A stretch of DNA of 38,509 nucleotides, taken from assembly GCA_020035195.1 (NCBI GenBank), contig JAIQBT010000070.1:1-38509 (forward strand), given 5' to 3'. The first letter of the stretch is position 1. Each line of letters begins with the position of its first letter. The notes under the pieces were generated by a model. It saw only the letters and a program-made list of their open reading frames with translations. It ran no database searches and was not told the DNA's origin. Below are positions 12,980 to 19,707 of this stretch, in pieces. The translations under genes and the position numbers were made by a program. Origin of the DNA: Methylotenera sp. Its GTDB lineage: Bacteria > Pseudomonadota > Gammaproteobacteria > Burkholderiales > Methylophilaceae.

Positions 12980-13393
12980 ATGACTAAACCGCGTTTTTAT
13001 ATCCCCGGCATTTTTCTGTTGTTAGGCTTAGCCTATGCCATCAACATGGATTGGTTGCAGGCACCTCAAGCAAGAGCACCCACGCCCCTAGAAAAGGCCG
13101 GCAATGACTGTGCCGGTATTGCTGACAATGCGGTGGCCCACATGCAGGCGGTCGTGGCTTTTCAAGTGCTGGAAAAAGAGGGGCGTAAGATTAATGTCAT
13201 GCGGCGTTGCATGGCAGACCATGGCTACATGGCAAACCCTAAATGGTTGGCCTACGGTGCACCGATGGCCAAGGAGCAGGCCTTAAAGAATGGCATATCC
13301 GAAGCCGAAGCCATAGAAAGCCTTAGGCGCCTTAACATGATGGTCTTCACGGCCAAAGACCAACAGCCTATTTACTGGGTGGCAAAGCCTTAG
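12980..13393 (+). CDS. hypothetical membrane-anchored/exported protein
   Basis: 137 aa, N-terminal hydrophobic segment, starts 3 bp after the peroxiredoxin stop. Confidence 0.65.
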   Translation: MTKPRFYIPGIFLLLGLAYAINMDWLQAPQARAPTPLEKAGNDCAGIADNAVAHMQAVVAFQVLEKEGRKINVMRRCMADHGYMANPKWLAYGAPMAKEQALKNGISEAEAIESLRRLNMMVFTAKDQQPIYWVAKP

Positions 13394-14399
13394 ATTGTTT
13401 CAAGGCCACGATGTTGCTGGCCAACAATTCCGCGGCATAGGGGTCCAAGCTGTTAATGCGCTGCGTCAATTTTTCCAGGGCATCAAAATCGGCTTCCTGC
13501 AAAGCGATTTTCGATTGTTGCATGAAGACCTCAAGGTGCTGCGGATTCAAGCTCAATGCTTTATTTAACTCATTTTTAGCCAATGGTGCACGGTTTAAAC
13601 CGTGGTCAGCGACGCCTAAGTAATACCAGGCATCAGGGGCCTCAGGTTGGCTTTTGGTCCAAGCCTCAGCGATGGCGTGTAAGGTAGGCCAATCCTTATT
13701 TTGATAGGGAATTACCACCTGCATAAAATAGGGTTGTTGATCAAAAGGCAACGCCCAAAATGGCGACTCGTCTGTATTTAAACTCAATAATTCTTTGCTG
13801 GCGATGAGTGCTCTTATCCATTCCACCGGCAAGCTGTAATAGAAACCTTGCGGTCCTGGGCTTTTAAAGGTGGTCATGCCGATTAAATTCAGCTTTTTGT
13901 CAAACAGTGCACCGCCACTAGATCCCAATGAAAATGCCGTGTTAGAACGGATAATGAGGCTGCCATCCATGGCGTATTTGGCCTTGATTGAGCCGTACGA
14001 TGGTTGCGGTACGTTGTTGCCATTGGGGTAGCCCAAACTAAACACGTCTTCTTCTATGGCCAAGCTGGCCGAGTCGCGTAAATTGACCGGCTTAAACGGC
14101 AAGCCTTCAAATTTGAGGGCGCACAAGTCATGCTTCCAGTCGGCTTTTAGGGCGATGGGTTTGTAGCCATCGTTGTATTTGGCGACGTTGGCCCCTTTGC
14201 CATTGGCTAACACGTGGCAATTGGTCACTACGTATTCTGGGCTGACAACCACGCCTGTGCCTGTACCTACCGTGCCGTTACCCAGCTCAACGGAAATTTG
14301 CACGATGGAATGGTGCAAGGACAGCAGTTCACCTATGCTGGGTTGGGCGATCACTTGGCTGGCTTGGGCCAGCAAAAAAAGCGCGATGAGATTTTTCAT
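13368..14399 (-). CDS. trypsin-like serine protease with C-terminal TPR-like region
   Basis: 343 aa, signal peptide; VVTNCHVLA (His), HDLCAL (Asp), LGSSGGAL (Ser); TPR-like tail. Confidence 0.88.
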   Translation of the reverse strand: MKNLIALFLLAQASQVIAQPSIGELLSLHHSIVQISVELGNGTVGTGTGVVVSPEYVVTNCHVLANGKGANVAKYNDGYKPIALKADWKHDLCALKFEGLPFKPVNLRDSASLAIEEDVFSLGYPNGNNVPQPSYGSIKAKYAMDGSLIIRSNTAFSLGSSGGALFDKKLNLIGMTTFKSPGPQGFYYSLPVEWIRALIASKELLSLNTDESPFWALPFDQQPYFMQVVIPYQNKDWPTLHAIAEAWTKSQPEAPDAWYYLGVADHGLNRAPLAKNELNKALSLNPQHLEVFMQQSKIALQEADFDALEKLTQRINSLDPYAAELLASNIVALKQSKALPPSK

Positions 14400-14525: not shown

Positions 14526-16112
14526 CTATTTGGGCTGGGCTAAATGCGCGTTATGAAACGCGTGGCATGACATGCAACTGCTGGCAATGCGTTTGGGTTT
14601 AGGGCTGTTGCCGGAATGGCAGCGTAAACAGGTTTTTCTGTCCGGCATGGCCACGTCGGCACTGCTTTCTGATTGCTCCACCTGATGGCAGGCTACGCAT
14701 TTTTGTGTGCGGTGCGAGGCGTGATTAAATTGCGCTTTGCTAAACCAATCTTGGCTAATCCTGACTTTTTTAACACGCCATGGCGCGCTGCTGTCTTTAT
14801 GGCTGGCTTGAATTTCGTGGCAATAGGCGCAGCCATTTTCTTTGAGGGAATTGGCATAGCGGGCTTGGTCTTTAGGCGCCTTCACTTTGAGGGCGTTCAT
14901 CACCGTTTCTTCATCGCCATGCGGCACGCTAAAGCTTTGTTTGCCTAAGCCTAATTGCAGTTGGTTTGCATGGCACAGTTGGCAGTCGCGCTTAAAATCA
15001 ATCGGCTGTATGCGCATTTCCTTGCCCTCACCTTGGTGGCAATTGCTGCAACTTAATTCACGAATGTCCATGACCCCGTTGGGCCCTTGCACCAGACCCA
15101 CGTGTTGGGAATGCGGAAACTTCAAACCGGAATGCTCCACTAAACGCGTCTTATTCGTTTGTGGAATGCGCTCTAGGCTGGTTTTCCCCAGTTGGTCATG
15201 GTGCTCACGGATGAAGCTGAGTTTAAATTCTGGGTGGCTACGGTCAAAATCTTTGACATCGGCTAAGGTGCTTTTAGCATCCACCGCTTTGATGTCCGCA
15301 TGGCAATTGACACAATTGTTGTTGTCTTGCTTGGCCAGTGGATGTGGTGCTTTGTGTTCTCTATGGCACTCAGCGCAGCGCATGCCATCCGACAAGCGGC
15401 CGCTGCTGTTAAACACGCGTTTTTGTAAAGCAGGATCGGCGATGTGTGCGGCGGTGTTCTGATGGCATTTCACGCAGGCCTGATCTTTAACCTGTTGGGT
15501 TAATTTTTCGTGGCAATTAAAGCACTGTGAGCCGAAATGCAAATGCGCATTTGAGACATGGCCTGGGCTCCAAACTCGGTCAAAGCCTAATGGAAGCTGC
15601 GCCATGGTTTTGTTTAGGGATGGAATTAGATTTTGTGCCAAAGGCAGGGCAATAAACACCAAGGCAATAAAAGCCGCCATCCACAATGCTATGCGTCGTT
15701 TAAAGCTAGATGCACCGCGCAAGGGTTCGTGCGTGCGTAATTTTAAATCTTGAAAATCATCGGGTAGGCGTTGCAGCAATAACAAGGACACCGCAATGTC
15801 CACATCGGGCGGTGCCGGCTCAACTTTTAATTGGTAAGGGCCTATGCTGATGAGTTTGCCGTGGCTCAATTCTATATGTTGTTGCACCACGCCATCGACC
15901 GCTAGTTCGCCGTTGATGGCGACTAAATAAAGTTGCCCGTCGTCCAAGCGTTTGATGACGGCATGGTGCATGGCCAAGCGCGGGTCTAACAGATGAATGG
16001 TGCATTCGGCGCCGCGGCCTAGGCTGATTTCTTCAGACGTTAAGGTGCGGTAGTTGCGTGATAACACGCCGCGTGTGCTGTGGGAGATTTTAATTAATAG
16101 GCAATTGATCAT
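14526..16112 (-). CDS. FHA-domain, membrane-spanning decaheme c-type cytochrome
   Basis: 528 aa; N-terminal FHA-like ISLGRGAECTIHLLDPRLAMHHAVI; one TM (RIALWMAAFIALVFIALPLA); ten CxxCH motifs (CFNCH, CVKCH, CAECH, CVNCH, CSNCH, CQLCH, CAYCH, CVACH, CLRCH, CMSCH). Confidence 0.9.
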   Translation of the reverse strand: MINCLLIKISHSTRGVLSRNYRTLTSEEISLGRGAECTIHLLDPRLAMHHAVIKRLDDGQLYLVAINGELAVDGVVQQHIELSHGKLISIGPYQLKVEPAPPDVDIAVSLLLLQRLPDDFQDLKLRTHEPLRGASSFKRRIALWMAAFIALVFIALPLAQNLIPSLNKTMAQLPLGFDRVWSPGHVSNAHLHFGSQCFNCHEKLTQQVKDQACVKCHQNTAAHIADPALQKRVFNSSGRLSDGMRCAECHREHKAPHPLAKQDNNNCVNCHADIKAVDAKSTLADVKDFDRSHPEFKLSFIREHHDQLGKTSLERIPQTNKTRLVEHSGLKFPHSQHVGLVQGPNGVMDIRELSCSNCHQGEGKEMRIQPIDFKRDCQLCHANQLQLGLGKQSFSVPHGDEETVMNALKVKAPKDQARYANSLKENGCAYCHEIQASHKDSSAPWRVKKVRISQDWFSKAQFNHASHRTQKCVACHQVEQSESSADVAMPDRKTCLRCHSGNSPKPKRIASSCMSCHAFHNAHLAQPK

Positions 16113-16127
16113 GGTGGTTAAAATCGC

Positions 16128-16958
16128 TTACCAATAAAAAAAGACCGCGAGCACATGGGCTATCATGGCCATCAATAAGGCGATGGCAAAAGGCACGTGG
16201 AAGTAGAGCCAAAAGCCCATGCGTGCCCGGTACATCAAATCTTGCCTGGCGCGTTTCACCAAGGATTCGCGGCGCACCATAATCGAGTACAAGTCGCGGT
16301 AAAGTTTACGCTGGTCGGCCGGTAAATCTTGCCCTAGCATGGTGAGCTCTTCGACGGCCATGGCCGTTGGGCAATCCGGTTGAAACCCGCGAAGTTGCTC
16401 TAACAAACCTATGCCTATGGAGGTTTCGCGGCAGGCGCGCATCACCGTGTTATTGATGTCGTCTGGCATTACCAAGGCAATTTGGCGCGCCATTTTGTCC
16501 GACTCGGCGATACGCAATAACAGGCCATCTAAATTGTCCTCGCCCATGTTTTCCGTCATCAAGCGCGGGTAGATCATGTAGGCATAGTTACCAAAAAAGC
16601 CACTCACCACCACAATCAATAAGAGGCCGTAGGTCACCGTGTGTATATTTAAACCGTAATTAAAGCCGCTGTGAAAGGTGGCAATAAAGGTCAGGGCTGT
16701 GCCTAAATAGATGTGGGCAGACAGCCAGGCTTGGGTGGTGCCACTGCTGCGGTAACGGCGTTTGCGGATGCCATACCATGCCATCCAAAACACCAAGGCC
16801 GCTGAGATGGTGCCTAAGGTGTAACCCAGCCAACTGCCGCCGTAATGGCCGACCGCCGGTTCAAAGACCAGGAAGGCCGCGAAGGCGAGTAAAATCATCA
16901 CCACCGCCAGTTTGAAGTAGCGGTATTTTTTGTAATCGAAAATATTGCTGTGTTGCAT
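16128..16958 (-). CDS. b-type cytochrome-like integral membrane protein
   Basis: 276 aa, about 5 TM helices with histidines (SAHIYLG, TFHSGF, NIHTVTY, YFHVPF, IAHVLAV) and a hydrophilic loop of about 100 aa. Confidence 0.7.
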   Translation of the reverse strand: MQHSNIFDYKKYRYFKLAVVMILLAFAAFLVFEPAVGHYGGSWLGYTLGTISAALVFWMAWYGIRKRRYRSSGTTQAWLSAHIYLGTALTFIATFHSGFNYGLNIHTVTYGLLLIVVVSGFFGNYAYMIYPRLMTENMGEDNLDGLLLRIAESDKMARQIALVMPDDINNTVMRACRETSIGIGLLEQLRGFQPDCPTAMAVEELTMLGQDLPADQRKLYRDLYSIMVRRESLVKRARQDLMYRARMGFWLYFHVPFAIALLMAMIAHVLAVFFYW

Positions 16959-16968
16959 GGCTTGAGTA

Positions 16969-19467
16969 TTAATCCTCGTCGTCGTTCATTAGTTTGGCGT
17001 CGCCACCTGCGCCACCGGCGTAGCTTAACAAGGCTTCCGGTTTTACCCGGAGCGCTGCGCCCACAGGGCATGCCCGCACGCACACGGGGCCGCCGCTGAT
17101 GTCTTTACACATATCGCATTTCACCGCCACTTTGGCGCCGTCTGTGACCGGTACGGATTTGGGTTTGATGCCCAAGAGCATTTGCACGATGCTGGGTTCT
17201 TTTTGCTCGTGTATCACCGACATTTGTATCACGTCGTACGGGCAGTTTTCTTGGCAATTGCCGCAGCCTATGCAACTGTCGTCTATGTAGACCTCGCCAT
17301 GCGGCGCTCGGTGTATGGCGTCCGGCGGGCAATCTTTCATGCAATGCGGGTGCTCGCAATGGCGGCAGGAAGTCGGCACGCGGATGTTGGCAAAAATAGG
17401 GCCGGCATCGCGGTCTAATCGAGTGGCGCCGCCGTGGGTGTCTGCACACGCTTGCTCGCAATGGTTGCAACGCACGCACAAGGATTCATCAATCAGCAAC
17501 ACGTCGGTGGCTTCGCCCAGGCCTTGTTGGATTAAAAAGGAAATTAAGTTGGATGGGCTGGATTGCTTGCCCGTGACGTTATTGCTTTCAAACGCCGTTT
17601 CTAGCTGCTGGCGATTTTCTTGATCCTGCAAATGCTGCAGGTAGCGCGCATCCAATTCGCCGCGTATTTCTGGGTTACGCGCAATGATGTCGCGCATGCG
17701 CCCGGCCTCAATAAACACCGCTTCCGTGGCTATCGCCGCACGCACCGTGGCATAGCGGGGTTCACCCGAAATCAAAGACATCTCGCCGACATAGTGCCCG
17801 GCAGCCACATAGAACAGCACCACCTCGCGCCCCCCTATCATGTGTGACACGGTTACCGATCCGCTTTGTATGAGGTAGAGGCCATCGGCCTCATCGCCTT
17901 CATGGAATAATTCCTCGCCGGCGGCGTAGTTTTTTAAGGTGGCGTTATTCGCCACATCGTTTAGATCTTTTTCGCTAAGCGACAAGCCTATGCAAAGGTG
18001 GATGATGGTTTTAATGGCCACCTCATTTAAGATGCGGCGCATGGATTGCACGGAATCAATCAGCTTCTGCATCACCCGTCTAGGCGTTTCAATTAACACG
18101 CAGGCTTGCGTGGCACGCACGGTACCGGCGCGGCGGCGGCCAGAGACCAGAGCCAGCTCGCCAAAGAACTCACCGGCTTTGAGAGTGCCATCGGGCACAT
18201 CGTCGTCGTCTATCAGTATGTCCAACTCGCCTTCGACAATAAAAAAGAAGGTGGTGCTGTAATCGTTGCGTTTAAATATAACATCGCCGGCTTGTGGCAA
18301 TAAAATGGCGCTTTCTAATACCAGCTCACGCAGTTGCAAGGTGCTGAGCATGGCCAGCAAAGGCACGCTTTTGCGTATTTTTTCCAAGACGTCGTCTATG
18401 CCACGGTCCGTGCAAAAGCTGGCAAATTTTTCACGCAATAATTGACTGTCGGCCGGCTCAACCGGGTTTCCCAGAATATGCTCAATGACATCGTAGCCTT
18501 GATTAATGCCTTGCTTGATCAGCGGGTAGCCGGCTAGTGCGCCTATGACATACAAGCCAGGCACGCTGGATTCATAGTGCGACGACAATTGCGGTAAGGC
18601 ATACAAATCAGGGGTGGAAAAGCCCACGCCAAAACTTTCTAACAAGGGCCGTGGCGATAGCGCACCCAAGCGAGCAATGACGCGGTGGCAAGGTATACGC
18701 TCTACCCCATTGGCCGTGTTGGCGAACACTGTAATGGGGTAGTCGCCCGTGGCATTCGCTTCTATGGATTGCGGTTTGGTCTCCAGCAACCAGTCCAACA
18801 CCCCGCGTTTTTTCGCTTCGGTTAATTGACTAAGGTTGATCTCCTTACAATTGCTGAAGTCTTCCGCGCGATTGAGGATGATGAGTTGGTTGCGCGCCGA
18901 TAAGGCGATGGCGTTTTCCACGCCGCTGTCACCGCCACCAATGACTACGATGGTTTCATTTTGGTAAGCATCGGGATCATCCAGTTGGTATTGAATTTGT
19001 GGCAAATCGCCGCCTGGAATGTCCAGTTGGCGTAAGCTGCCTTGCACGCCCATGGCCAGCACGGCATTTTTAGTGCGTAGGCTGCTGCCGTCGTCCAGTT
19101 CCACTAATAAGCCATCGGCTTGTTGCTGTATGCCCACGGCTTTTGCCCCATAGCGCACATTCACTTGGTGCTCGGCCATGGTCTGTTCCCAGGTCTGCAA
19201 TACCGATTCGCGCGAGGATGCCGTGAAAGGCAAAGCGCTGCGCAAGGGTAAGCCGCGCGGTTCAGACATCACCAATTTGCCGCGCTGGTAATTGCGCACG
19301 GTATTGGCAGGGGCTTGTTCTGCTTCTAATAATAAGTAGCTCAAGCCTTGTTGGCTGGCGCGCACGGCCGCGGACAAGCCGCTAGGACCAGCGCCTATGA
19401 TGACGATGTCATATAAGGGGTTGGTCGCCGACTTGGCTGACTTTTTATTTTTTTCAGCTTTTGCCAT
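16969..19467 (-). CDS. fused FAD/NAD(P) oxidoreductase + two cyclic-nucleotide-binding domains + 4x[4Fe-4S] ferredoxin domain
   Basis: 832 aa; DIVIIGAGPSGLSAA and VVIGGGDSGVENA dinucleotide motifs; two cNMP-type segments (FFGELALVSGRRRAGTVRA, YVGEMSLISGEPRYATVRA); four cysteine clusters (CVRCNHCEQAC, CRHCEHPHCMKDCP, CIGCGNCQENCP, CDMCKDISGGPVCVRACP). Confidence 0.93.
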   Translation of the reverse strand: MAKAEKNKKSAKSATNPLYDIVIIGAGPSGLSAAVRASQQGLSYLLLEAEQAPANTVRNYQRGKLVMSEPRGLPLRSALPFTASSRESVLQTWEQTMAEHQVNVRYGAKAVGIQQQADGLLVELDDGSSLRTKNAVLAMGVQGSLRQLDIPGGDLPQIQYQLDDPDAYQNETIVVIGGGDSGVENAIALSARNQLIILNRAEDFSNCKEINLSQLTEAKKRGVLDWLLETKPQSIEANATGDYPITVFANTANGVERIPCHRVIARLGALSPRPLLESFGVGFSTPDLYALPQLSSHYESSVPGLYVIGALAGYPLIKQGINQGYDVIEHILGNPVEPADSQLLREKFASFCTDRGIDDVLEKIRKSVPLLAMLSTLQLRELVLESAILLPQAGDVIFKRNDYSTTFFFIVEGELDILIDDDDVPDGTLKAGEFFGELALVSGRRRAGTVRATQACVLIETPRRVMQKLIDSVQSMRRILNEVAIKTIIHLCIGLSLSEKDLNDVANNATLKNYAAGEELFHEGDEADGLYLIQSGSVTVSHMIGGREVVLFYVAAGHYVGEMSLISGEPRYATVRAAIATEAVFIEAGRMRDIIARNPEIRGELDARYLQHLQDQENRQQLETAFESNNVTGKQSSPSNLISFLIQQGLGEATDVLLIDESLCVRCNHCEQACADTHGGATRLDRDAGPIFANIRVPTSCRHCEHPHCMKDCPPDAIHRAPHGEVYIDDSCIGCGNCQENCPYDVIQMSVIHEQKEPSIVQMLLGIKPKSVPVTDGAKVAVKCDMCKDISGGPVCVRACPVGAALRVKPEALLSYAGGAGGDAKLMNDDED

Positions 19468-19683: not shown

Positions 19684-19707
19684 AAATGTTACAAAAATGT
19701 AACATTT
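19684..19707. promoter_or_regulatory. spaced palindrome, candidate operator
   Basis: AAATGTTACA-AAAA-TGTAACATTT, perfect 10-bp arms, between divergent genes. Confidence 0.5.

Follow-up and report, generated by a model that had tools for sequence, protein, structure and literature searches.

A conserved gene triplet of Methylotenera as a proposed NAD(P)H-to-periplasm electron conduit with cyclic-nucleotide-binding and FHA domains

Three adjacent minus-strand genes on contig JAIQBT010000070.1 of a Methylotenera metagenome-assembled genome (MAG, 80% complete; its nearest relatives among named records are MAGs and strains of Methylotenera) encode a flavin/iron-sulfur protein of 832 aa, a membrane cytochrome of 276 aa and a decaheme c-type cytochrome of 528 aa, here called FAD, CYB and C10, respectively. 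They lie in a stretch of 38,509 nucleotides, i.e., the window. We propose that the three products form one inner-membrane electron conduit that would lead from NAD(P)H to the periplasm, and we assign this reading a probability of roughly 0.6. Conserved gene order, small intergenic gaps and invariant cofactor ligands support a single electron-transfer unit. A preliminary description of the window had reported three adjacent minus-strand genes with gaps of 10–15 bp, and we found these open reading frames exactly in place, with gaps of 15 and 10 bp. The features of the module are the following.

16969–19467, minus strand: FAD, NAD(P)H-type flavoprotein with two cyclic-nucleotide-binding (CNB) domains and four [4Fe-4S] sites, 832 aa
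18496–19413, minus strand: Pyr_redox FAD/NAD(P) domain of FAD, residues 19–324 (Pfam, motifs)
18043–18309, minus strand: CNB1 of FAD, approximately residues 387–475 (domain edges approximate), phosphate cassette FGELAL...R
17674–17934, minus strand: CNB2 of FAD, residues 512–598, phosphate cassette VGEMSL...R
17068–17478, minus strand: four [4Fe-4S] sites of FAD, 16 Cys, residues 664–800
16128–16958, minus strand: CYB, cytochrome with five transmembrane (TM) helices, His in TM3 and TM5
14526–16112, minus strand: C10, FHA domain, TM helix and decaheme c-type cytochrome, 528 aa
15840–16025, minus strand: FHA domain of C10, residues 30–91
15636–15692, minus strand: single TM helix of C10, residues 141–159
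14553–15545, minus strand: ten CXXCH heme sites and ten further conserved His of C10

The exact order FAD>CYB>C10 was found in 116 of 130 loci (some of them fetched twice via different collections) from Alpha-, Beta- and Gammaproteobacteria; the remaining loci were mostly cut contigs or had FAD located apart. A lack of conserved co-occurrence had been named beforehand as the finding that would speak against the proposed chain, and the 116 loci contradict such a lack. Moreover, the three genes are under strong purifying selection, with dN/dS values of 0.04, 0.03 and 0.08 against a close relative. From values in this range (0.03–0.08) together with the conserved order we conclude that the unit is not a chance arrangement. 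Full-length CYB was present in 24 of the 25 Methylotenera genomes with at least 90% completeness in a protein search of 60 relatives, and within the genus the triplet is intact in several surroundings, i.e., beside cytochrome oxidase genes in the window's clade and beside unrelated genes in other clades.

A collection scan for FAD yielded loci from Methylotenera, Gallionella, Lysobacterales, Comamonadaceae, Colwellia, Rhodospirillaceae, SAR116 and others. Distribution is patchy, with the module in 14 of 370 genomes of a class sample and in 17 of 398 genomes of a phylum sample. In a quick tree of FAD, a betaproteobacterial clade contained Methylophilaceae and Gallionellaceae as one group (support 99), and most alphaproteobacterial rows stood apart from most gammaproteobacterial rows. 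These groupings suggest mostly vertical descent with many losses. A Sulfuritalea MAG (L089) grouped with Methylotenera and a Mesoflavibacter MAG (L164) with alphaproteobacterial rows; these names are likely wrong or the contigs mis-binned.

FAD matches Pyr_redox_2/3 and several Fer4 families above the Pfam gathering cut-offs. Its flavin domain carries GxGPxG and GxGD motifs, and in 55 homologues both dinucleotide-fold motifs and all 16 Fe-S cysteines are conserved, the latter invariant or nearly so; the NAD(P)H-type flavoprotein with four [4Fe-4S] centres of the preliminary description is thereby borne out. N199-R200 after the second dinucleotide-fold motif might hint at NADPH. Among NCBIfam models, YpdA matches the flavin domain best, at 106.9 bits versus a cut-off of 339.9. 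YpdA is marked by a Cys after GxGP, which occurred in one of the 55 flavin domains, and CXXC occurred in none; we therefore rejected a thioredoxin reductase or bacillithiol disulfide reductase (YpdA). NrfC/DmsB/HycB-type proteins likewise have four [4Fe-4S] sites, and AegA-like fusions combine a flavin oxidoreductase and Fe-S clusters in one polypeptide. In AegA, however, the Fe-S part is N-terminal, whereas in FAD it is C-terminal and two CNB domains stand between flavin and Fe-S parts.

CYB scored 28.6 bits against the Ni_hydr_CYTB/cytochrome b561 family (PF01292), i.e., below the Pfam cut-off of 30.1. We call it b-type because of its histidines and not because of family membership: H82 and H96 in TM3 and H254 and H268 in TM5 are invariant in 57 of 57 homologues, and H106 in 56. 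The invariant residues form two pairs spaced by 14 residues on two helices, as is usual where two b hemes are stacked. In the structure model (pLDDT 90.6), five long helices are accompanied by a helical loop domain at about residues 139–245, which the positive-inside rule places in the cytosol.

C10 matches Cytochrome_C7 and Cytochrom_c3_2 above the gathering cut-offs. Among 69 homologues, ten CXXCH motifs and exactly ten additional histidines (H190, 223, 253, 293, 334, 337, 398, 464, 467 and 520) are invariant or nearly so. The ten c-hemes attributed to the third protein were thus recovered, and the pattern fits ten bis-His hemes, which would argue for electron transfer rather than catalysis. 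Membership in the MtrA/DmsE decaheme family was rejected on score (37 bits against the DmsE-family model TIGR03508, cut-off 192.2). In six Gallionella loci (L123, L125, L129, L134, L137, L155) one heme site of C10 is CX4CH (CQQSxCH), and a plain CXXCH count gives nine.

In the proposed mechanism, reduced pyridine nucleotide would reduce the flavin of FAD, and electrons would pass singly through the four [4Fe-4S] clusters, for which the cytosolic loop of CYB would be the docking site. They would cross the membrane via two b hemes, with H82/H254 on the inside and H96/H268 on the outside, and reach C10 with its ten bis-His c hemes. C10 would be anchored by its one TM helix, with FHA in the cytosol, and would then reduce an acceptor in the periplasm or the outer membrane. 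Electron entry would be switched by the tandem CNB domains, and FHA would dock.

In many other Pseudomonadota the acceptor is probably a set of neighbouring genes, c3–c5, i.e., an HbpS-like gene (c3), a putative outer-membrane barrel of about 610 aa (c4) and an LVIVD cytochrome of about 1250 aa (c5). The c4 product has a signal-peptide-like start and an aromatic C-terminus, and yielded no Pfam match and no PDB match to MtrB. The c5 product has ten CXXCH motifs and C-terminal LVIVD repeats. At least one of c3, c4 and c5 was found in the fetched flank of 32 of 48 representative loci outside the Methylophilaceae/Gallionellaceae clade. In many loci the block lies behind C10 on the same strand; it runs towards the module in the f215 genomes and in Sphingobium, and precedes FAD in L126 and L135. 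Proximity to the module is kept while the arrangement varies. Strong c5 matches occurred in nine genomes of the 370-genome sample, and all nine were among its 13 other module carriers (P about 2e-15, plain hypergeometric, not corrected for relatedness). Gallionella loci carry the module without c3–c5. FAD frequently has a four-heme cytochrome c554-like gene (c6) next to it, on one strand or the other (L069, L071, L073, L074, L124, L126, L135, L146–L151 and others), and genes that by eye resemble CcmF/G/H/I of cytochrome c maturation lie near the module in L047–L049, L069, L123 and L140.

Known envelope chains resemble parts of this arrangement. As in MtrCAB, MtoAB or DmsEF with CymA, an inner-membrane entry would feed a periplasmic decaheme, and in relatives a putative barrel and a large multiheme protein are encoded next to the module. 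Entry here, however, would proceed via an NAD(P)H-type flavo/Fe-S protein and a b cytochrome, not via a quinol oxidase, and unlike in the Mtr/Mto porin-cytochrome complex, no barrel gene lies beside the module with its decaheme gene in Methylotenera. In Geobacter, CbcL and CbcBA type systems pass electrons from quinol through a b-type membrane cytochrome to a periplasmic multiheme cytochrome. That step is shared, whereas a flavin/Fe-S protein with CNB domains in the unit and an FHA domain fused to the decaheme are particular to the module. ExtM, a cytochrome of a selenite/tellurite reduction operon in Geobacter, is matched significantly by c5 of the relatives (model NF040943, 80.7 bits), but far below the cut-off of 800, and c5 differs in having neighbours of its own and a region of LVIVD repeats at its C-terminus.

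The preliminary description had further proposed that a second messenger may gate the chain. FAD contains two cNMP_binding (PF00027) stretches, which scored 128.7 bits, above the Pfam cut-off. Among the 55 homologues, the phosphate-cassette residues E437 and R446 of CNB1 are invariant, and E562 and R571 of CNB2 are kept in 54 and 53, respectively. In the cassettes, Glu and Arg are nine residues apart, as in the regulatory subunit of PKA. A calcineurin-like phosphoesterase related to CpdA/SpdA directly follows C10 on the same strand in all 8 f215 genomes (L190–L197) and in the two Sphingobium records that were read (L232, L233), in one of which it is annotated CpdA. Against the CpdA and SpdA NCBIfam equivalogs, these proteins scored 78–99 and 133–137 bits, i.e., below the cut-offs of 225 and 400; equivalog status was therefore rejected, and we regard them as related metallophosphoesterases with a putative substrate. 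In the two Sphingobium records the module lies on plasmids of roughly 1 Mb.

Around the whole module or a part of it, the fetched flanks of L070, L072, L076, L141, L198, L080 and L135 contain class III cyclases, several of them with CHASE2. The first four share one gene set and hence are not independent cases; this set comprises a CHASE2-adenylate cyclase, a FecR-like gene (by eye) and a gene with TPR-like repeats, adjoining the module or CYB-C10. Of the near-complete Methylotenera, the majority possess a class III cyclase. Gating by a cyclic nucleotide gains support because the CNB cassettes are conserved and phosphodiesterase or cyclase genes adjoin the module in other lineages. We give the tandem CNB domains nearly even odds of being a cyclic-nucleotide switch on electron entry.

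Gating by phosphorylation fared differently. The FHA fold of C10 is confirmed by sequence and structure, with 29.2 bits versus a Pfam cut-off of 20.7 and a Foldseek E value of 6e-6 to the FHA domain of Ki67; among 59 homologues, 48 had an FHA match and 49 a YscD-cytoplasmic match. Signalling-type domains hence do sit on both end proteins, as had been proposed, but the canonical serine of the phosphothreonine-reading site of the FHA domain is usually missing. Of its residues, Arg was found in 62 of 66 homologues, and the position of the canonical Ser (SxxH loop) held Ser in only 9 and Ala in 33; the window's protein keeps Arg33 and has Ala47 in place of the Ser. Ser/Thr kinases are present in most Methylotenera, and no Pkinase match was obtained in the window's MAG or in a module-bearing close relative (G015, 94% complete). 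We hence rejected phospho-Ser/Thr gating as the default. The FHA domains of GarA/OdhI can do without this serine in an interaction with ODH/KGD (PMC10415282). Because these domains bind partners without that serine, docking becomes likelier, and the FHA of C10 probably serves for docking and not for reading phosphothreonine.

Several observations weigh against the proposed conduit or its gating. Four loci have CYB>C10 without FAD beside them, and four others (L124, L126, L135, L152) have FAD without CYB and C10 beside it. CYB had no solved-structure match in a PDB profile search and Foldseek gave nothing usable, so that we infer the number and pairing of its hemes. No acceptor was identified in Methylotenera, where c5 had no match in nine genomes searched and c3 and c4 were not searched; the c5 negative is meaningful because the same query matches 17 other genomes. 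In that genus C10 may reduce a compound outside the cell or a soluble protein of the periplasm. Several module carriers are aerobic heterotrophs, for which an extracellular respiratory role is not obvious. Finally, three near-complete Methylotenera that carry the module, G016 (99% complete), G012 and G018, had no detectable class III cyclase, and class I cyclase was not found in any of ten genomes tested. The ligand may therefore not be cAMP everywhere, and some carriers may lack the second messenger. Overall, second-messenger control is partly borne out. The full proposal, i.e., that cAMP or a different cyclic nucleotide at the tandem CNB domains gates NAD(P)H entry, by opening or closing it, into a quinone-independent transmembrane relay which, in many Pseudomonadota and among them aerobic heterotrophs, delivers electrons to an outer-membrane barrel/10-heme conduit, appears tentative to us, with the odds somewhat against it.

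Reverse flow would be the nearest alternative. Periplasmic electrons from Fe(II) or from cytochromes of methanol or methylamine dehydrogenase would enter C10, and membrane potential would drive the inward reduction of NAD(P)+ or ferredoxin. The chain is formally reversible, and Gallionella, many of which are Fe(II) oxidisers, carry the module without c3–c5. Table 1 of a Gallionellaceae pangenome lists a 'Forkhead-associated protein' with ten hemes (cluster 403) under 'Other', with no function given, in 27 of 87 iron-oxidising genomes (PMC10734462); judged by its description, this cluster probably comprises the C10 orthologues. However, just these 27 of the 87 autotrophs carry the protein, and the module is also found in many heterotrophs that have NADH from organic carbon. 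We hence regard reverse flow as unlikely.

Still less likely is a sensor, in which hemes and Fe-S clusters would report the periplasmic redox state to a cytosolic CNB/FHA assembly tuning the cyclic-nucleotide level or another output, with small flux. Two signalling-type domains and the adjoining phosphodiesterase or cyclase genes in several lineages would suit it, but a sensor needs far less than an NAD(P)H-type flavoprotein, four Fe-S clusters and ten bis-His hemes, and the strict co-occurrence of c5 and module points to flux towards the envelope. That the flavoprotein, being YpdA/TrxR-like, supplies periplasmic disulfides or heme ligation with reductant, as its best NCBIfam match and the maturation-like genes at a few loci might suggest, is highly improbable given the missing cysteines, a decaheme wire that thiol chemistry does not need and the lack of such neighbours at most loci.

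If the outward, NAD(P)H-fed conduit holds, envelope electron transfer would start not from quinol alone, and a widespread inner-membrane unit with a built-in second-messenger switch would span Methylotenera (common freshwater methylotrophs), Sphingobium, Colwellia, SAR116 and Gallionella. A cyclic nucleotide that binds the redox enzyme itself and thereby controls a transmembrane redox chain allosterically would, to our knowledge, be without precedent. For methylotrophs, the unit would be a candidate route to shed surplus reductant at low oxygen. It would also explain the uncharacterised FHA-decaheme counted among the Gallionellaceae cytochromes, where cluster 403 is listed without partners, mechanism or taxonomic range. 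In the open literature (5.39 million papers), beyond this table row, we found no description of FHA combined with a decaheme, multiheme or c-type cytochrome (subscription journals were outside our scope). The module is real and conserved and, as far as searchable, provisionally functionally undescribed.

Upstream of the module lies one further feature.

19687–19704, no strand: perfect inverted repeat TGTTACATTTTTGTAACA (TGTTAC-N6-GTAACA), between the module and the divergent DUF2244/cytochrome oxidase genes

The repeat is a possible operator and may serve the divergent oxidase operon. As it is conserved in the closest relatives only and shared with that operon, a conserved promoter or operator for the module was dropped. 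Just downstream of C10 on the same strand (13368–14399), the window encodes a trypsin-like protease with TPR repeats, which only the closest relatives keep.

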